This document shows positions 73 through 31,585 of a stretch of DNA of 33,936 nt, piece by piece. Position 1 is the first letter of the stretch, and every line of letters starts with the position of its first letter. The position numbers and the translations under genes are program-made. Source of the stretch: Candidatus Vecturithrix granuli (GTDB lineage: Bacteria > Moduliflexota > Moduliflexia > Moduliflexales > Moduliflexaceae); contig DF820470.1 in the NCBI GenBank assembly GCA_000739535.1, forward strand, positions 563,437 through 597,372, written 5' to 3'. The notes under the pieces were generated by a model. That model was given only the letters and a program-made list of their open reading frames with translations. It did no database searches and was not told where the DNA came from.

Positions 73-1299
73 ATGGGAAAAACAGCAATTGCTGGAGATA
101 AAGGTCCGACTGTTCGGTCGGATTGTCTGGTCACGCTTGAAATGCGCGACAGTGGGGGGCTGGAAATAGAGCTTATCAGCAAACTTGAAACGCTGTATGG
201 TGATGCGCTCAGAGCTTTGTGTCAGGATGTCCTGAACTTTTTTGAGGTAAAACATGCCAAACTTCAAGTAGATGACAGTGGCGCGATCGATTGCGTGCTG
301 GCAGCCAGAATTGAAGCAGTTGTGAAACAATGTATTGAGACCAGGAAAGAATATCTGTTAGACATACTGCCTGAAAATCAGTATCACACTAAAAAAGACC
401 GCTATCGCCGGTCGCGCTTGTACCTTCCCGGAAATACCCCCAAATTTATGATCAATGCCGGCATTCACCATCCGGATGGAATTATCCTTGATCTGGAAGA
501 TTCTGTGGCGCCAGATAAAAAAGCTGAAGCCAGAATTTTGGTGCGCAATGCCCTGCGGGGCATAGATTTTTATGGGGCGGAACGGATGGTACGCATCAAT
601 CAAATCCCAAAAGGATTAGAGGACCTGGACTATATTGTGCCTCATCATGTCAACCTCATTCTCATTCCCAAATGTGAAACGGCGGATCAAATCCACCAGG
701 TTGACGAACGGATTGCCCGCATTTTACAAGAAAAGAACGTAGATTACCCTATTTACTTCATGCCGATTATTGAGAGTGCGTTGGGAGTGGTCAATGCCTA
801 TCAGATTGCTTCAGCCTCCAAGAATGTCGTCGCCTTAGCGATCGGTCTGGAGGATTATACCGCCGATTTAGGCACACAGCGCACGAAAGAAGGACGCGAG
901 ACATTTTTTGCCAGATGTCAGGTGGTCAACGCCGCCAGAGCCGCAGGCGTTCAACCGATAGATTCGGTGTTCTCCGATATTTCCGATATGGATGCCTTGC
1001 GAGACGTGGTACTGGAATCAAAATCCCTGGGATTTGATGGCATGGGTTGTATTCACCCACGCCAGATTCCGATGATTCATGAATATTACGCCCCGAACGA
1101 TCAAGAAATCGAAAAAGCCAAAAAGATTGTCCGCGCCTTTGATGAAGCTTCAGCAAAAGGATTAGGGGTCGTCTCACTGGGGTCAAAAATGATCGATCCG
1201 CCAGTCGTCAAACGCGCGCAGCGCACAATAGCTCTGGCGATCAATGCAGGGAAATTAGCTGAGAATTGGAAAAATAGCGATCCAGGAGTGAACACCTGA
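73..1299 (+). CDS. citDE: citrate lyase acyl carrier protein-beta subunit fusion (CitD-CitE)
   Basis: The 408-aa protein has two parts. Residues ~5-90 match citrate lyase gamma subunit (CitD), the acyl carrier: an N-terminal AGDKGPTVRSDCLVTL segment places Ser16 where CitD carries its phosphoribosyl-dephospho-CoA group, and VDDSGAIDCVLAARIEA fits the CitD C-terminal motif. Residues ~112-400 match CitE, the citryl-ACP lyase: RSRLYLPGN, LDLEDSVAPDKK, LIPKCET, LEDYTADLG and GCIHPRQI. CitE releases oxaloacetate from citryl-ACP; CitF transfers the acyl group. In characterised systems CitD and CitE are separate chains, so the fusion is the oddity. The start is set by GGGGAGGG five bases upstream. 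No citC, citX or citG is in view, so prosthetic-group synthesis must be encoded elsewhere. A citramalate lyase is the main alternative because the families are homologous. Confidence 0.88.
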   Translation: MGKTAIAGDKGPTVRSDCLVTLEMRDSGGLEIELISKLETLYGDALRALCQDVLNFFEVKHAKLQVDDSGAIDCVLAARIEAVVKQCIETRKEYLLDILPENQYHTKKDRYRRSRLYLPGNTPKFMINAGIHHPDGIILDLEDSVAPDKKAEARILVRNALRGIDFYGAERMVRINQIPKGLEDLDYIVPHHVNLILIPKCETADQIHQVDERIARILQEKNVDYPIYFMPIIESALGVVNAYQIASASKNVVALAIGLEDYTADLGTQRTKEGRETFFARCQVVNAARAAGVQPIDSVFSDISDMDALRDVVLESKSLGFDGMGCIHPRQIPMIHEYYAPNDQEIEKAKKIVRAFDEASAKGLGVVSLGSKMIDPPVVKRAQRTIALAINAGKLAENWKNSDPGVNT

Positions 1300-1354
1300 A
1301 AAGTGGAATGTGAAGAACGAAGAGCATTTTTCATTCTTCACGTTTCATTTTTCA
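1297..1354. repeat. word-iterated intergenic hairpin, period 7 (citDE/citF)
   Basis: The left arm (1297-1324) is four heptamers of type TGAAAAG/TGAAGAA and the right arm (1327-1354) is four heptamers of type TTTTTCA/TTCTTCA, giving 28-base arms around a 2-base centre. Most departures from complementarity are G-U compatible (about five) with about one true mismatch. The first unit contains the citDE stop codon TGA. An AGGAGTGA sequence at 1284-1291 lies just before the hairpin, and the citF ATG is 8 bases after it. Confidence 0.85.
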
Positions 1355-1362
1355 TTCAAGTT

Positions 1363-2925
1363 ATGGCAGTTGAATTTGTAAAAAATGCGGTGGGCCGAAT
1401 GATCCCAACCGAAATCAATGGAAAACCGGTCATCCCGTTCCAGGGAGTCGGGAAATATCGTCCGACCGGCAGAAAATATGCGCCCCCTGTTGCCACATCC
1501 GCCGATTATCCTTCGGATGGCAATAAGGTGCTGCCAGATTTGAAAACCGCTCTTCTTAAGGCCGGAATCAAAGATGGCATGACCATTTCAACTCACCACC
1601 ATTTTAGAAATGGCGACTTGTTGGTAAATGAACTGTTTCGGGTCATTGCGGAAGAAATCGGAACAAAGGATCATGTCTGGTTTCCTTCAGCCTCCTTCCC
1701 CTGTCATGAACCACTGATCAAATATTTGGAGGATGGCACGATTCATCATATCGAGGGCAGCATGAATGGTCCCCTGGGCAGATTTACATCTCAGGGGAAA
1801 ATGCGCGGCGTAGGCGTGCTTCGTTCGCATGGCGGCAGATATCAGGCCGTACAAGACGGCGAAGTGCAAATTGATATTGCGGTTATTGCGGCTCCGGAAG
1901 CTGATCCTTTTGGAAATTGCAATGGCGTCAACGGTCCCTCAGCATGCGGGTTGTTAGGTTTTGCCCTGGCAGATTCCCAATACGCCCATAAGGTGATCGT
2001 CGCGACAGATAATCTGATTCCATTCCCCTGTATCCCCTGGCAGATTCACGGAAACTACGTGGATTACGTGGTTACAATGGACAAAATAGGGATCCCGGAG
2101 AAAATTGTTTCCGGAACAACTGAAGTGACTAAAAGTCCGGATCGTCTGTATATTGCCGAATTAACCGGAAAATTCTGTGAAGCGGCCGGTCTTATTAAAG
2201 ATGGATTTTCATTTCAGGCCGGCGCAGGCGGCACATCGCTTTCAATCGGTATTTATTTTGCTGAGATCATGAAGCAAAAAGGGATTAAATCCCGTTTTGT
2301 CAGGGGCGGCAGCAATAAATACCTTGTTCGGATGCTTGAAGAAGGGCTGACAGACTATATTTTGGATGGACAGACTTTTGATCTGGATGGCGTGCGTTCC
2401 ATGCGTGAAAATCCAAGACATATCAATACCAGTCCCTTCACAAGTTATAACTATCATGGCAAAGGCAATTTTGCCACGCTTTTAGACATTGTCATTTTGG
2501 GCGCTACCGAACTTGATGTGCATTTCAACGCCAATGTCGTCACCCATTCTGATGGGTATCTGCTGCATGGAATCGGCGGTTGGCAGAATTGCCTGTTTGG
2601 CAAAACCGTGATCCTGCCGGTGCCCTTATTCCGGGATCGCATTCCGGTGATTCGCGATGAAGTGACGACCATTTGCGGACCAGGAGAATTAATTGACGTG
2701 GTCGTGACAGAACGAGGGATTGCCATTAATCCGCTTCGCAAAGATTTGATCGAAGCCACAAAAGATTCAGGGCTTCCGATCAAAACAATTCAAGAATTAA
2801 AGGCTGAAGCTGAGAAAATTTGCGGGAAACCGCAAAAACCCCAATTCACCGAGAAAGTGATTGCCGCTATCAAATGGGTTGACGGCACGGTGATAGATGT
2901 TGTGAGGCAGGTAAAAGAGAATTGA
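1363..2925 (+). CDS. citF: citrate lyase alpha subunit (citrate:acetyl-ACP transferase)
   Basis: This 520-aa protein matches CitF, which swaps acetyl for citryl on the acyl carrier domain and so starts citrate cleavage to acetate and oxaloacetate. Supporting segments are STHHHFRNGD near residue 79, the Gly-rich GNCNGVNGPSACG, QAGAGGTSLSI, and RGGSNKYLVRMLEEGLTDY. Length fits the family (about 500-520). An open frame extends up to 1303, but it runs through the intergenic hairpin; the ATG at 1363 starts MAVEFVKNAVGR, as expected for the family. No Shine-Dalgarno sequence lies between the hairpin and this ATG. The nearest, AGGAGTGA at 1284-1291, is on the far side of the hairpin. It forms an enzyme with the CitD-CitE fusion directly upstream. 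Confidence 0.9.
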   Translation: MAVEFVKNAVGRMIPTEINGKPVIPFQGVGKYRPTGRKYAPPVATSADYPSDGNKVLPDLKTALLKAGIKDGMTISTHHHFRNGDLLVNELFRVIAEEIGTKDHVWFPSASFPCHEPLIKYLEDGTIHHIEGSMNGPLGRFTSQGKMRGVGVLRSHGGRYQAVQDGEVQIDIAVIAAPEADPFGNCNGVNGPSACGLLGFALADSQYAHKVIVATDNLIPFPCIPWQIHGNYVDYVVTMDKIGIPEKIVSGTTEVTKSPDRLYIAELTGKFCEAAGLIKDGFSFQAGAGGTSLSIGIYFAEIMKQKGIKSRFVRGGSNKYLVRMLEEGLTDYILDGQTFDLDGVRSMRENPRHINTSPFTSYNYHGKGNFATLLDIVILGATELDVHFNANVVTHSDGYLLHGIGGWQNCLFGKTVILPVPLFRDRIPVIRDEVTTICGPGELIDVVVTERGIAINPLRKDLIEATKDSGLPIKTIQELKAEAEKICGKPQKPQFTEKVIAAIKWVDGTVIDVVRQVKEN

Positions 2926-4879: not shown

Positions 4880-6682
4880 ATGACGCTGATTGAAAAAATT
4901 ATTGCCAATCATTCAGAAAAAAAGACAGTTGTTCCGGGCGAAATTGTGGATATTTGCATTGATGTCCGGGCGGCCCGTGATTTTGGCGGCGCCAATGTCG
5001 TTAAGAATCTTGTTGAGAATAATTTAGAAATTGCTGATACCAGCAGGACGTTTTTTACGTTCGATTGTAATCCGACCGGCTCAGATCAAAAATACGCCGC
5101 CAATCAGCAGACATGCCGGATGTATGCCCGTGATCACGGAATTCAGGTGTATGACATTGATTCAGGCATCGGAACCCATCTCGTGATTGAACAAGGACTG
5201 GCAACCCCTGGTAGCACCGTGGTTTCGACAGACTCTCATGCGAATATTTTGGGTGCGGTTGGAGCCTTTGGCCAGGGAATGGGCGATCAGGATATTGCCG
5301 CCGCCTTTGCCAATGGATCGGTCTGGTTCAAGGTGCCGAAATCAGTAAAGTTGACATTGAGCGGAAAACGCCCGGAAAACGTGTCAGCAAAAGACATTGT
5401 GCTGAATCTGCTGCATCGCTTCGGAGCGAATGAATTGTTAGGCTATTCCGTTGAATTATACGGCGCAGAGGTTGAAACGTTGAGCCTGGATGAACGTATC
5501 ACGATTGCCTCGATGGGGACCGAAATGGGGGCGATCATCGTGATGTTTCCGCCATCCCAAGCGATTATGGATTATTGCGAAGCCCGCTCAGGTAAAAAAC
5601 TTGAGATGATTCAGGCCGATGCCGATGCTGTGTATGACCAGGAGTTTGAGCTTGATCTGAGTAGTTTTGTGCCGATGGTGTCAAAGCCGGGACACCCCGA
5701 AGATACTGTTGACATCAACGAGGTGAAAAAGTCCAAAATAGACTCTGCTTTCATCGGCAGTTGCACTAACGGCAGAATGGAAGATATGCGGATTACTGCC
5801 AGGATTTTGAAGGATCGCAAGGTAGCTCCCGGTGTGGTGTTGAAAATTGTGCCGGCCACAGATGAAATCTGGAAACAGTGTCTTGAAGAAGGACTGATTA
5901 AGATCTTCAAAGACGCTGGCGCATTGGTCGGAAATGCCGGGTGTGCCGGGTGTGCTGCCGGACAGATTGGGCAGAATGGCCCCGGAGAAGTCACACTCAG
6001 CACCGGTAACCGCAACTTTGCCGGAAAACAAGGGAAAGGCAGCGTCTATTTAGCGTCTCCGGCAACCGTAGCAGCCTCGGCAGTCGCCGGGTATATCACG
6101 ACTGAAGATGATATTCCCGCAGAACCAGTGGTATTTGCCCCGGGCAAAGCTGAACAAGCAGCGGCAGCGAAGAAAAAAGCTGCGGTTGAAGCCAGACCGG
6201 TAGTCGTCGAAGGTAAAGTTTGGATTATCAAAAAAGATAATATTGATACCGATATGATTTATCATAATCGCTACCTCACGATTACCGATATTAACGAGAT
6301 GGGCAAATACACCTTTGATAATCTCAAAGGCTGGGAAGATTTTGCCAAAAAAGCTGAATGCGGCGACATTGTGATCACCGCCAAAAATTTTGGCGCCGGC
6401 AGTTCCCGGCAGCAGGCGGTAGATTGTTTCAAATCGCTTGGCATTCAAGCGATTCTGGCCGAATCGTTCGGAGCGATTTACGAGCGCAACGCGATCAATG
6501 CTGCCATGCCGATTCTCACCTATCAGAACATCGCTGAACTGGATCTGAAGGATCGCGATAAGGTGCGAGTGGATTTTGCAAATGGTACGCTCACCAATCT
6601 CGAAAACAATAAAACCGTTCAGATTACCCCATTTTCCGACGTGCAAATGGCGATTTATAAAAAAGGCGGACTGCTGGGGTAA
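4880..6682 (+). CDS. aconitase/isopropylmalate dehydratase family, fused large and small subunits (copy 1)
   Basis: The 600-aa protein fuses a LeuC-like catalytic part (residues ~1-415) to a LeuD-like swivel domain (~450-600) through an Ala/Lys-rich linker (near 425-445). The [4Fe-4S] cysteines are visible in SCTNGR and in GNAGCAGCAAG. TDSHANILGAVGAFG is the family's substrate-site segment. The small domain has NIDTDMIYHNRY and FGAGSSRQQAVDC. Operon context with citrate lyase and isocitrate dehydrogenase points to citrate/isocitrate isomerisation, but members of this branch also act on isopropylmalate, homocitrate, citramalate or dimethylmalate. The sequence differs clearly from copy 2, so the two probably do not have the same role. 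The start follows GGGAGG with good spacing. Confidence 0.82.
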   Translation: MTLIEKIIANHSEKKTVVPGEIVDICIDVRAARDFGGANVVKNLVENNLEIADTSRTFFTFDCNPTGSDQKYAANQQTCRMYARDHGIQVYDIDSGIGTHLVIEQGLATPGSTVVSTDSHANILGAVGAFGQGMGDQDIAAAFANGSVWFKVPKSVKLTLSGKRPENVSAKDIVLNLLHRFGANELLGYSVELYGAEVETLSLDERITIASMGTEMGAIIVMFPPSQAIMDYCEARSGKKLEMIQADADAVYDQEFELDLSSFVPMVSKPGHPEDTVDINEVKKSKIDSAFIGSCTNGRMEDMRITARILKDRKVAPGVVLKIVPATDEIWKQCLEEGLIKIFKDAGALVGNAGCAGCAAGQIGQNGPGEVTLSTGNRNFAGKQGKGSVYLASPATVAASAVAGYITTEDDIPAEPVVFAPGKAEQAAAAKKKAAVEARPVVVEGKVWIIKKDNIDTDMIYHNRYLTITDINEMGKYTFDNLKGWEDFAKKAECGDIVITAKNFGAGSSRQQAVDCFKSLGIQAILAESFGAIYERNAINAAMPILTYQNIAELDLKDRDKVRVDFANGTLTNLENNKTVQITPFSDVQMAIYKKGGLLG

Positions 6683-6703
6683 ATCAGGAATCAGGATTAA
6701 AAG

Positions 6704-6713
6704 AAGGAGGTGA
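6704..6713 (+). promoter_or_regulatory. perfect Shine-Dalgarno sequence separated from its start by a hairpin
   Basis: AAGGAGGTGA at 6704-6713 is fully complementary to the usual 3' end of 16S rRNA, but the next gene starts at 6770, 56 bases away. The hairpin 6716-6757 fills this gap. With the hairpin folded out, only 14 bases separate the site from the ATG. Confidence 0.65.
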
Positions 6714-6715
6714 GG

Positions 6716-6757
6716 TTACGAGTTAGGGTTTAGAAATTTCTAATTTCTAATTCGTAA
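6716..6757. repeat. word-iterated intergenic hairpin, period 7 (aconitase 1/aconitase 2)
   Basis: Three heptamers of type TTAGAAA/TTACGAG (6716-6736) abut three of type TTTCTAA/TTCGTAA (6737-6757). Arms of 21 bases pair with about 17 Watson-Crick pairs, three G-U pairs and one U-U mismatch; the centre bases would form the loop. It has the same build as the other elements of this operon with a different word. Confidence 0.85.
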
Positions 6758-6769
6758 TTTTATACAATC

Positions 6770-8554
6770 ATGGCTGGGAGAACGTATGTAGAGAAGATTT
6801 TTGACGCTCCCAAGGGGAGCATTGTGTTCAAACATCCTGACATCGTGTTATCTCACGATAATACAGCCAGCATTGAAAAAACCTTTAAAAAAATGGGAGG
6901 CGAACAGCTTGCCGATCCGGATCAACTCCTGATCGTGCTCGACCATAATGCGCCGCCCACCAACAGTAAATTGGCGAATGACTATCAACAGATTCGGGAT
7001 TTTGTCAACAAACATGGGGTGAAAAAATTCCATGATGTCGGTGAAGGGATTTGTCATCAGGTGATGTCTTACCATGCCAAACCGGGGATGATTATTGTGG
7101 GCAGCGATAGCCATACCTCGACAGCCGGCGCGTTTAATGCTTGTGCTGCGGGCATTGACCGCACAGAAACCGCCGGGCTTTGGAAAAAAGGGGAGACCTG
7201 GTTCCGGGTGCCGGAAACCATCAAAATCACCCTGCATGGAGCCTTACAAAAGCCGGTTGCCGCCAAAGACCTGGCGCTGTGGATTATCGGCATGATTAGT
7301 TCCAGCGGCGCTGATTATATGTCCATCGAATATCATGGCGACGGCGTCAAAACACTCTCGATTTCAGAACGCATGACCTTAGCGAATCTGGCCTCTGAAA
7401 TGGGCGCTAAAAATGCGGTATTTCCCCCGGATGAAGTATTGGAAGCCTTCTTAGGGACAAAAATCACCAATGGCGTCTGGGCTGATGCTGATGCGATCTA
7501 TCTCAAAGAAATTGAGATCAATCTGAACGAGATTTTTCCGGTCGTTGCCTGTCCGCACCATGTAGATAATGTCAAGGCAGTGGCTGAAGTCGCCGGCACA
7601 AAGTTGAATCAGGCCTTAATCGGCACCTGCACCAATGGTCGTTTAGACGATTTGCAGGCAGCGGCAGAAGTTCTGGCTGGCAAAAAGGTTCCGGCTGGTT
7701 TTCAATTGTTAGTGATCCCAGCTTCCCAAAAAATTTATCTGGAAGCCATGAAAGACGGGACGCTTGAAAAATTAATAAAAGCCGGCGCCAGCCTGCTCGC
7801 CCCCTCCTGCGGCCCCTGTTTGGGCACCGGACAGGGCATTCCGGCGGATAATTATACGGTTATTTCAACCGCCAACCGGAATTTTTTAGGTCGAATGGGA
7901 AACAAAAATGCCAGCATTTATCTTGGCTCACCAGCAACGGTGGCAGCCTCCGCCCTGCGGGGAGAAATTACGGATCCACGTCCGCAAAAAGGTTCCGAAC
8001 AATTCCCCTACAAAAAAGCGAGTGACGGGGTCAAAACCGTCGAAATTAAAGCTGGTGATAACCGCTATGCTGAAGGTGTTTGGGCGTATAACGACGTTGA
8101 TAATCTCAACACCGACCAGATGTTTGCGGGCAACTTAACCTACAACATCAACAGTTCGGAACCGGACAAAATTGCGCCGCACCTTTTCAAAGGTTTTGAT
8201 GACAGTTTTGCCGAACGGGTTCAACAAGGCGATATTATTGTAGCTGGCAACAATTTTGGGTGCGGCAGTTCACGCGAGCATCCTGCTGTGGGACTCGCAC
8301 ATGCCGGAGTAAAAGCCGTGATCGTGAAATCCGTGGGCCGAATCTTCTTCCGTTCAGCGATCAACCAGGGCTTGCCGATTATTGTGCTGCCGGAAGCAGT
8401 CGAGGCCTACGAGCCAGGTGATCAGATGACAGTAGATTTTGCCAAAGGATTGGTCAAGGTTGCCGGTAAAGAATTCACCTTTGCCCCGCTGCCAGACAAA
8501 TTGATGGAAATTCTTGAGGCAAAAGGTCTGGTGAATTGGATGCAAAAAAATTAA
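6770..8554 (+). CDS. aconitase/isopropylmalate dehydratase family, fused large and small subunits (copy 2)
   Basis: A 594-aa fusion of a LeuC-like part (residues ~1-400) and a LeuD-like part (~430-594). The Fe-S cysteines are in GTCTNGR and APSCGPCLGTG. GSDSHTSTAGAFNACAAG, and GETWFRVPETIKI after it, are typical of the LeuC/homoaconitase branch; the swivel domain shows NTDQMFAGN and FGCGSSREHPAVGLAHAG. It is probably aconitase or a related hydro-lyase working with copy 1 and the isocitrate dehydrogenase. Which of the two is the true aconitase cannot be told here. There is no Shine-Dalgarno sequence next to the ATG; a perfect one lies on the far side of the preceding hairpin. It is the last gene of the operon and is followed by an 11-bp hairpin at 8573-8604. 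Confidence 0.83.
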   Translation: MAGRTYVEKIFDAPKGSIVFKHPDIVLSHDNTASIEKTFKKMGGEQLADPDQLLIVLDHNAPPTNSKLANDYQQIRDFVNKHGVKKFHDVGEGICHQVMSYHAKPGMIIVGSDSHTSTAGAFNACAAGIDRTETAGLWKKGETWFRVPETIKITLHGALQKPVAAKDLALWIIGMISSSGADYMSIEYHGDGVKTLSISERMTLANLASEMGAKNAVFPPDEVLEAFLGTKITNGVWADADAIYLKEIEINLNEIFPVVACPHHVDNVKAVAEVAGTKLNQALIGTCTNGRLDDLQAAAEVLAGKKVPAGFQLLVIPASQKIYLEAMKDGTLEKLIKAGASLLAPSCGPCLGTGQGIPADNYTVISTANRNFLGRMGNKNASIYLGSPATVAASALRGEITDPRPQKGSEQFPYKKASDGVKTVEIKAGDNRYAEGVWAYNDVDNLNTDQMFAGNLTYNINSSEPDKIAPHLFKGFDDSFAERVQQGDIIVAGNNFGCGSSREHPAVGLAHAGVKAVIVKSVGRIFFRSAINQGLPIIVLPEAVEAYEPGDQMTVDFAKGLVKVAGKEFTFAPLPDKLMEILEAKGLVNWMQKN

Positions 8555-15533: not shown

Positions 15534-15566
15534 AAAAACCGAGTTTTTCAAAAAACTCGGTTTTTT
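15534..15566 (+). terminator. rho-independent terminator after the BMP gene
   Basis: A perfect stem, AAAAACCGAGTTTTT (15534-15548) with its complement at 15551-15565, ends in a T-run. It would let the binding-protein message accumulate over the rest of the operon. An almost identical hairpin occurs at 29017-29049. Confidence 0.9.
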
Positions 15567-29016: not shown

Positions 29017-29049
29017 AAAAACCGAGTTTTTTCAAAAAACTCGGTTTTT
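29017..29049 (+). terminator. rho-independent terminator after the cyclase gene
   Basis: AAAAACCGAGTTTTTT (29017-29032) pairs with 29034-29049, ending in a T-run. It is nearly identical to the hairpin at 15534-15566. Confidence 0.9.
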
Positions 29050-29080: not shown

Positions 29081-29716
29081 ATGATTTCCAATAACATGTC
29101 CCAATATCCTGAAATCGAACTGAATTATCGCAATATGGAACCTCCTTTCTGTTGGAAGGATATTTTTGGCAATTCCGCGCCAGTTGAAATCGAAGTTGGT
29201 TTTGGAAAGTGTGGTTTTCTGATTCATCTGGCCGCTCAATTTCCGACAATAAATTTTTTAGGGATCGAAAAGTCGCGGAAATATTATCAGAAAGGACTCA
29301 AAAAAGTCCAACACGCCAATCTCCGCAACGTGAAACTGCTGTGGGGCGAGGCTGCTCATATTTTACAGCGATATATTAAAGATGCCTCTGTCGCCATGCT
29401 GTATGTCAATTTTCCCGATCCCTGGCCCAAAAAGAAACATGCAAAACGTCGTTTGCTCAATGCGGATTTTGCGGCAATTGCCGCCCGGAAGTTAGTTTTT
29501 GACGGATGTATCGAAATCGCCACTGATATAGAAGCGTATGCGCATGAAGCCATGAATGTATTTGATACGTGCGCCGAGTATGAAAAATTATACTATCGCA
29601 CTAATGGTCATGCGGAACCTTTGCGTCTGTCTCGCACGGAATATGAGGAAGACTTCCTCCGGCAGGGGAAAACGCTTCACTATGCAAAGTATCAGAAAAG
29701 GTGTGGAAATGTTTGA
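29081..29716 (+). CDS. trmB: tRNA (guanine-N7)-methyltransferase
   Basis: A 211-aa SAM-dependent methyltransferase that makes m7G46 in tRNA. Diagnostic segments are the SAM-binding EVGFGKCGFLIHLA, FLGIEKSRKYY (acidic loop), the hallmark YVNFPDPWPKKKHAKRRL, and the C-terminal RTEYEEDFLRQGK (family TxfE). The start at 29081 or the ATG at 29096 are both possible; no Shine-Dalgarno sequence decides. The stop codon lies inside the left arm of the hairpin that separates it from dnaG, so the last few codons are encoded by that element. Confidence 0.92.
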   Translation: MISNNMSQYPEIELNYRNMEPPFCWKDIFGNSAPVEIEVGFGKCGFLIHLAAQFPTINFLGIEKSRKYYQKGLKKVQHANLRNVKLLWGEAAHILQRYIKDASVAMLYVNFPDPWPKKKHAKRRLLNADFAAIAARKLVFDGCIEIATDIEAYAHEAMNVFDTCAEYEKLYYRTNGHAEPLRLSRTEYEEDFLRQGKTLHYAKYQKRCGNV

Positions 29717-29795
29717 GTATTTAGGTGTTTAAGGGTTTGAGTGCTTAATAGAAAGTACTAAACACTTAGACACCTAAATACTCAAACATTTCCAC
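29703..29795. repeat. word-iterated intergenic hairpin, period 8 (trmB/dnaG)
   Basis: Built of octamers such as TTTGAGTA, TTTAGGTG and TTTAAGGG on the left and their complements on the right. The outer 26 bases (29703-29728) pair perfectly with the matching right end (to 29795), then the stem continues with about one G-U pair, one mismatch and one bulge to roughly 43 bases. The trmB stop codon (29714-29716) is within the left arm. A weak Shine-Dalgarno-like AAAGGTG (about 29697-29703) is on the far side of the hairpin from the dnaG ATG, which is 8 bases after it. Confidence 0.88.
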
Positions 29796-29803
29796 CCTAT
29801 CCT

Positions 29804-31585
29804 ATGGCATCAAAATACATTCCTGATGACCTCATTAATGCAGTACGCCAGCAGGCCGATATTGTTGAGATTATCTCGGAATATGTGCCCCTTGAACATA
29901 CTGGCAAAAATTATAAAGGTTTGTGTCCGTTCCACAAGGAGAAAACCCCGTCATTCGTGGTCAATCCGGATATGCAACTTTTTAAGTGTTACGGTTGTGG
30001 AGTCGGAGGAAATGTCTTTACCTTTTTGATGCAATATGAGAAATACACCTTTCCCGAAGCAGTGCATGTGGTGGCGCAACGGGTAGGGATCTCGCTTTCC
30101 TCAACTTTGCAGCAGCAGACCTCGCCAGAGTATTCCCGGAAGAAAAAACTGTTTCAACTGCACCTTGAGGCGGCACAATATTTTTCGCGTCAATTGCTCC
30201 ACAATGACCAGGCCAAACCCGTGCGAGAATATCTCCAACGTCGAGGAATTGATGCGAAGATGATCGAGACGTTTTCTCTTGGCTATGCCTTGCCAGATTG
30301 GGACGATTTGCGCAAAACATTTCTTGTAAAATATCCTGCAGAGCTTCTCCTACAAAGCGGTTTGTTGATCAAAAAAGAAAATGGGAGTGGTGAGTATGAT
30401 CGTTTTCGTAACAGATTGATGATTCCTATCCATGATCATCAGGGGAAAGTGATTGCCTTTGGTGGAAGAGCAATGGAACATGATGCAAAGGCTAAATATT
30501 TGAATTCTCCTGAAAGTCCGATTTTTCACAAAGCTAACACCTTGTTCGGATTTCATCAGGCTAAAGATGCCATCCGGCGTACAGAAACGATCGTGATTGT
30601 GGAAGGCTATTTTGATATGATAGTCCCATATAGCCACGGGGTTCAGAATATTGTGGCGACGATGGGAACGGCCTTGACTGAGCAACATATGCGGCTTTTA
30701 CAGCATGTTAAAAACGTGATATGGATGTTTGATGCTGATACTGCTGGAATTAGAGCGGCGTTCCGTACGTTAGATCTTATGCTTCAATACGGGCGTGAGC
30801 CTCGATCCGTGATTCTTCCACCGGGAGAAGATCCGGATTCTCTTGTCAGAAAAGTTGGAGTTGAGGAATTCCAGCGTGTCATCGAGGAAGCACCTCTGCT
30901 ATTGGATTTTATCAGGGCTCACATCATCAAAAAATATGACATAAATAAGGTTGAACACCAAATAGCCTGTGCAAAAGAAATCCTTCCGATTATCTTAAAA
31001 ATCCAGTCAGAAGCTGTAAGAAACATCCAAATACGGCGAACCGCGGATTGGCTACGTGTAACAGATAAGTCCTTAATGGAAGAATTTAAAAAGATTGCAG
31101 AAACAGGAAAGATTCAATTTTTGCCGAGAGCGCAACAACAAGGACAAGAAAGATACCTCCCGATTCCTCGGTTGGAACAATATCTCCTGAAAGCTCTGCT
31201 CAAGGATAAACGCTTGATTGCTGACATCAGAACCGAGCTTGATCCGCAAGAGGTTTCGCATCCGGTCACTCGAAAAGTACTGGAAACCTTGTTTATTTTT
31301 GAGGATAAAACCGATTTTGAAGCAAAGGTGCTTGATCTGTTTCAGGGAACGAGCGTGCAGAACGATCTGACAGATTTGTTTTTAGATCTTGACGAAATTA
31401 TTGATCCTGCCAGAACCGTTCAGGATTGTTTGCGCCAGTTGCGACAACGCCGATTTGAACACCAGACCCTTGACTTGAGCCGAAAAGTCCGCGATGCCCA
31501 GGAACAAAGGAATGATGACACGATTGAAAGGTTTTTGGAACAGAAAAATAGAGATCTGCTCAAAAAAAAGCAGCACTATGGATGA
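29804..31585 (+). CDS. dnaG: DNA primase
   Basis: A 593-aa bacterial primase that makes RNA primers at the replication fork. The zinc-binding domain has Cys41, His44, Cys62 and Cys65 (CPFHKEKTPSF, CYGCG). The RNA polymerase core has LFGFHQAKDAI, and the TOPRIM domain has IVIVEGYFDM (Glu near 267) and the FDADTAG metal site (near 309). The C-terminal ~150 residues are the helicase-binding domain (LEQYLLKALL). The length is typical. It precedes rpoD as in the classic rpsU-dnaG-rpoD macromolecular synthesis operon, without rpsU here. The start region has no Shine-Dalgarno sequence next to the ATG (see the preceding hairpin). Confidence 0.96.
   Translation: MASKYIPDDLINAVRQQADIVEIISEYVPLEHTGKNYKGLCPFHKEKTPSFVVNPDMQLFKCYGCGVGGNVFTFLMQYEKYTFPEAVHVVAQRVGISLSSTLQQQTSPEYSRKKKLFQLHLEAAQYFSRQLLHNDQAKPVREYLQRRGIDAKMIETFSLGYALPDWDDLRKTFLVKYPAELLLQSGLLIKKENGSGEYDRFRNRLMIPIHDHQGKVIAFGGRAMEHDAKAKYLNSPESPIFHKANTLFGFHQAKDAIRRTETIVIVEGYFDMIVPYSHGVQNIVATMGTALTEQHMRLLQHVKNVIWMFDADTAGIRAAFRTLDLMLQYGREPRSVILPPGEDPDSLVRKVGVEEFQRVIEEAPLLLDFIRAHIIKKYDINKVEHQIACAKEILPIILKIQSEAVRNIQIRRTADWLRVTDKSLMEEFKKIAETGKIQFLPRAQQQGQERYLPIPRLEQYLLKALLKDKRLIADIRTELDPQEVSHPVTRKVLETLFIFEDKTDFEAKVLDLFQGTSVQNDLTDLFLDLDEIIDPARTVQDCLRQLRQRRFEHQTLDLSRKVRDAQEQRNDDTIERFLEQKNRDLLKKKQHYG

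Follow-up and report, generated by a model that had tools for sequence, protein, structure and literature searches.

The hairpin that separates a perfect Shine–Dalgarno (SD) sequence from the start codon of acn2 in Candidatus Vecturithrix granuli is probably an intercistronic hairpin made of heptad words, beside which the SD match lies incidentally. The original prediction had read the order SD, hairpin, ATG, at acn2 and before citF and dnaG, either as initiation by a ribosome across a folded hairpin or as insertion of an element between a binding site and its start. As shown statistically, this order is mostly incidental.

The acn2 locus

The genome of Ca. Vecturithrix granuli UASB270 (KSB3/Modulibacteria) comprises 8,384,694 bp in 21 scaffolds, with an N50 of 597,372 (PMC4312070). 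The main sample for the analysis was 2.40 Mb of this genome with 1,694 called genes, and a further 0.40 Mb served as a held-out set; combined, they cover about one third of the genome. In this host, 45–47% of genes have an SD, with a peak at −16 to −8 from the start and a per-position rate at the peak of 23–37% in ordinary SD genes. The assembly was searched for a 16S rRNA with the exact anti-SD tail and none was found; the tail was taken as standard, a choice supported by the genome-wide SD peak. The window, i.e., the whole 33,936-nucleotide stretch of DNA under study, was also scanned with Rfam, and a tRNA was the sole match.

The sequence bore out the predicted positions of AAGGAGGTGA and of the acn2 ATG (Table 1), and the hairpin between them was confirmed as real by its minimum free energy of −24.7 kcal/mol and z of −4.67, which no shuffle equalled. 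No in-frame start precedes the acn2 ATG before a stop is reached, and the start is thus fixed. As had also been predicted, there is no SD between hairpin and ATG at acn2, citF or dnaG. The 3′ arm of the acn2 hairpin is a period-7 word array (AATTTCTAATTTCTAATTCGTAATT), and its arm measure, 0.47, falls slightly below the word-hairpin threshold. AAGGAGGTGA occurs 50 times genome-wide, against 12 copies of the reversed control pattern.

Table 1. Positions of the features discussed, numbered from the first base of the window.
Feature	Position	Strand	Basis and remarks
AGGAGTGA	1284–1291	+	Within codons of the citE-like gene
Word-type hairpin	1297–1354	+	Opens with the TGA stop codon of the citE-like gene; z −4.6
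citF (citrate lyase alpha)	1363–2925	+	TIGR01584, 8e-149; start 8 nt past hairpin, without SD
acn1 stop (TAA)	6680–6682	+	ORF list; upstream aconitase/IPM-dehydratase-like gene 4880–6682; NCBIfam aconitase family
AAGGAGGTGA	6704–6713	+	Full complement of the anti-SD; may be a split SD but is probably incidental
Intercistronic hairpin	6710–6763	+	Strict core 6716–6757; fold, inverted repeat and word array
acn2	6770–8554	+	Aconitase-family enzyme, Bacteroidales type; ORF list
Long word-type hairpin	29703–29795	+	Overlaps trmB end; 36-nt arms 94% complementary; z −10.2
dnaG	29804–31585	+	TIGR01391, 1.4e-138; start 8 nt past hairpin, without SD

The spacing depends on how much of the stem is folded. 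In the linear sequence, the GGAG of the acn2 site lies at −64 from the ATG, making it a strong SD at a non-functional spacing. The original prediction had folded out a 42-nt hairpin, which corresponds to the strict stem; this leaves GGAG at −22, outside the host SD peak. The stem can, however, be lengthened through G–U and A–U pairs to 54 nt, and solely with this extended stem does GGAG fall at −10, within the peak. In the extended form AAGGAG (6704–6709) stays single-stranded, and the stem is followed by ACAATC and then the ATG.

The same order had been claimed for citF and dnaG. Both hairpins are real, but the supposed SD sites are codons in the tails of the upstream citE-like and trmB genes, whose stops (1297–1299 and 29714–29716) lie at or inside the respective hairpins. 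When the hairpins are folded out, the citF GGAG is at −20, and dnaG has AAGG alone, at −13.

Two classes of hairpin with different relations to the SD

Three groups of hairpins were set apart by shared 14-mers and internal periodicity. Hairpins of the REP-like families stand mostly upstream of an intact SD, which lies between hairpin and start in 57 of 89 genes. At least four such families were seen (CGAAACTCCAGTTTCGCG, AAACCGGGTTTCTTCAAGAAACCCGG, GGAGTGCGAAAGCTCTGC and GAAACTACAAGGATT), with copies in the window at 1–45, 15534–15565 and 29017–29049 and at many other sites in the genome.

Word hairpins consist of repeats of ≈7–9 nt, such as GTGTTTGAG, TTGAATG and AATTGAC, and an SD follows the hairpin before the start in only 2 of 23 genes, compared with 47% in the genome overall. 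Such word arrays numbered 83 in intergenic gaps, but only one in shuffled gaps; 36 had a period of 7, and most of the others one of 8–9. Of 17 arrays lying near a start, one had an SD at the normal position. No 14-mer of the hairpins at acn2, citF and dnaG recurs in any other hairpin of the sample. The two classes thus differ in where they stand: REP-like elements precede an SD that is intact, and the polar hairpins made of heptad words take up the SD position of genes that have none.

Relative to transcription, the polarity of the word hairpins is fixed. In co-directional gaps, 28 of 29 had a G-rich 5′ arm and a C-rich 3′ arm (p = 1e-7), with genes of both strands represented, and the same was true of 5 of 6 in the held-out set. 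The density of SD cores is accordingly 12 times higher in the 5′ arms of word hairpins (0.0133 per nt) than in the 3′ arms (0.0011). Because of this polarity, and because upstream coding tails end at the hairpin, SD-like, G-rich bases come to lie ahead of the hairpin and hardly ever behind it. Together with the arm densities, the polarity therefore explains the order SD, hairpin, ATG without any ribosome mechanism. Within the window, the hairpins at 1297–1354, 2928–2976 and 29703–29795 are examples of it.

The median distance from stop codon to word hairpin was 8 nt, and the median stop-to-start gap after folding out was 24 nt. The closeness to the stop looked striking, and anchoring of word hairpins to stop codons was considered; tested against random placement in such short gaps it is not significant (p = 0.15), and the idea was dropped.

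SD matches at folded-out spacing are not enriched

The genome-wide comparison drew on 183 genes of the main set in which the start lies no more than 25 nt from the end of a hairpin. The test itself was confined to distances of at most 14 nt with no SD in between, which left 61 genes in the main set and 72 with the held-out set. In the 61 genes, SD cores occurred at 5 of 354 positions (1.4%) at folded-out spacing and at 25 of 2257 (1.1%) elsewhere 5′ of the hairpin (p = 0.59). A four-base SD core was present in the folded-out window of 6 of the 72 genes, as against 8, 3, 6 and 6 for shifted windows of the same length. On the comparison that the original prediction had itself proposed, SD matches thus occur ahead of such hairpins no more often than in control windows, and the arrangement does not hold as a general design.

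Some observations count against the incidental reading. The held-out set by itself gave a higher rate (4 of 67 positions, compared with 3 of 407), although it is small, at 11 genes. Five-base SD matches, before curation, numbered 6 at folded-out spacing among the 72 genes, as against 0, 1, 2 and 2 in the controls. Another is the geometry of acn2, which is ideal with the extended stem. Curation of the six five-base matches left two, acn2 and a peptide deformylase-like gene, although the controls were not curated likewise. DXS was rejected as a split site, since its SD stands before an ORF of 21 codons, the stop of which overlaps the GTG. In one of the other matches dropped, GGAGTG was an arm of its own hairpin family; another had an alternative start at SD spacing; and a third was weak, with a five-base AAGGA only.

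In the 2.4 Mb sample, perfect or near-perfect SD 8-mers gave 76 intergenic matches (overlapping patterns counted apart), and 41 of these had an ORF of at least 40 codons at SD spacing. About 20 distinct intergenic AGGAGGTGRTG sites (AAGGAGGT/AGGAGGTG) in the same 2.4 Mb were orphans with no start at SD spacing. Several orphan SD-like sites read AGGAGGTGGTGYG. Strong SD-like 8-mers without a start are therefore common, while a perfect 10-mer adjoining a hairpin is unusual singly; the probability of a chance 8-mer at the acn2 position was roughly estimated at ≈0.01–0.02 for the sample and 0.05 genome-wide.

The acn1–acn2 junction in Bacteroidales

The acn2 protein is 64–72% identical to proteins of Bacteroidales, whereas only distant homologues (39% or less) were found in the same family and order as the host, which suggests that acn2 was acquired by horizontal transfer. 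It is the second of two aconitase-family genes in tandem (4880–8554), and its Bacteroidales type suggests that a citrate-metabolism block was transferred.

In thirteen Bacteroidales cases, the gap between acn1 and acn2 ranged from −5 to 43 nt, and an SD of the acn2 type was looked for in these thirteen tight junctions and not found. In two other Bacteroidales contigs, the gap was longer and contained word hairpins of different sequence, one filling a 118-nt gap (L100) and another in a gap of 209 nt (L135). The split arrangement is thus absent from the Bacteroidales acn2 orthologues, in which the junctions are either tight or occupied by other hairpins, with no SD. Bacteroidales with these junctions hardly use SDs (8.4%, against a background of 6.3%), and the L100 and L135 hairpins therefore show that hairpins of this kind can arise at the junction when no SD is there. 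The word hairpins on Bacteroidales acn contigs, those of the junction at L100:7882 and L135:7850 and two more at L104:2034 and L101:5870, differ in sequence, and all have G-rich 5′ arms.

Interpretation of the acn2 hairpin

Given these results, an intercistronic heptad-word hairpin with incidental SD placement is the reading that we favor for acn2. In general, word hairpins are inverted arrays of degenerate words of ≈7–9 nt and fill the short stop-to-start gaps of co-directional gene pairs. Translation of genes behind word hairpins most likely begins without an SD, as in about half of the host genes, and initiation would be either SD-independent or coupled to translation of the upstream gene. 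The hairpin itself would be transcribed between the two cistrons and could plausibly act in mRNA processing or stability or else be a tolerated neutral expansion; an RNase III gene is present in the host genome.

The strongest competing explanation is a split translation initiation region, in which the 30S subunit would bind AAGGAG while the 6710–6763 stem is folded, bringing the SD to 6 nt from the AUG. The unpaired AAGGAG and ACAATC–ATG on either side of the extended stem, with GGAG at −10 when it is folded out, are what such a site would need, and the mechanism has been shown in T4 (PMC3014915) and is described for thrS (PMC3936740). The peptide deformylase gene, moreover, has a like order around a REP hairpin. 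Against this stand the lack of enrichment over the 72 genes, the position of GGAG at −22 with the strict 42-nt hairpin, and the Bacteroidales junctions without such an SD. Initiation across a folded hairpin therefore does not stand as a general design and survives for acn2 alone. We consider it rather unlikely that acn2, and perhaps also the peptide deformylase gene, is translated across a folded hairpin of 40–54 nt as a chromosomal split site, with acn2 belonging to an operon of Bacteroidales origin. If this is true at acn2, a mechanism demonstrated chiefly in phage T4 would have an example on a chromosome.

Less probable still is the insertion of an element between an SD already in place and its start, tolerated on account of its folding out. 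An element standing between SD and start is seen most cleanly at the peptide deformylase-like gene (contig C20, minus strand, ≈0.51 Mb), where a common hairpin of the dispersed REP family lies between AAAAAGGAG, which contains AAGGAG, and the ATG; here, insertion may hold. Folded-out stop-to-start gaps, moreover, resemble operon spacing. At acn2, however, the tight Bacteroidales junctions contain no SD for an element to split, and the claim is unsupported there. Most REP-family hairpins, as described above, are followed by an intact SD, and in just 2 of the remaining 32 cases is there an SD at folded-out spacing. A promoter within the hairpin, giving rise to a leaderless acn2 message without the hairpin, is very improbable: the very short hairpin-to-ATG distance leaves no room for a usual leader and TATACAAT overlaps the 3′ foot of the stem, but SD-less genes show no TANNNT peak 7–13 nt before the start, and this candidate was rejected.

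Comparison with known systems

Among the split initiation regions compared here are those of T4 genes 25 and 38 (Nivinskas/Malys), in which spacers of 22–27 nt fold to 5–11, as established by mutation and probing (PMC3014915). Like these, acn2 has an SD too far from the AUG, a hairpin that would, in its extended form, restore the spacing, and an intercistronic position. Unlike them, it has a spacer of 54–59 nt, is a single gene known from its sequence alone, and belongs to a genome without enrichment of the arrangement. In E. coli, thrS has an SD near the AUG. At its split ribosome binding site, cited in PMC3936740, the 30S subunit can accommodate a hairpin without unfolding it. The thrS hairpin lies between two single-stranded regions that contact the ribosome, whereas acn2 has no SD near the AUG.

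Dispersed REP- and MITE-like palindromes are likewise short intergenic hairpins, and several REP-like families exist in the host genome; the acn2, citF and dnaG hairpins differ from them in lacking shared 14-mers within the sample.

The nearest described repeats to the word hairpins are the intergenic TAACTGA heptamers of Beggiatoaceae, Cyanobacteria and Bacteroidetes (MacGregor 2015, PMC4679880). In these, one word is repeated directly in a single arm, and no RNA structure is predicted; the repeats lie just upstream of starts and overlap the expected SD position, and genes behind them have an SD in ≈10% of cases, compared with 25% (PMC4679880). Tandem TAACTGA was absent from the 2.4 Mb of host genome. 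The word hairpins resemble these repeats in being tandem intergenic words of ≈7 nt near starts where SDs are rare (here 2/23, against 47%), and differ in using many words, in two inverted arms that form stable hairpins of fixed polarity. This polarity relative to transcription can be put to the test in a class of repeats that is widespread and poorly understood.
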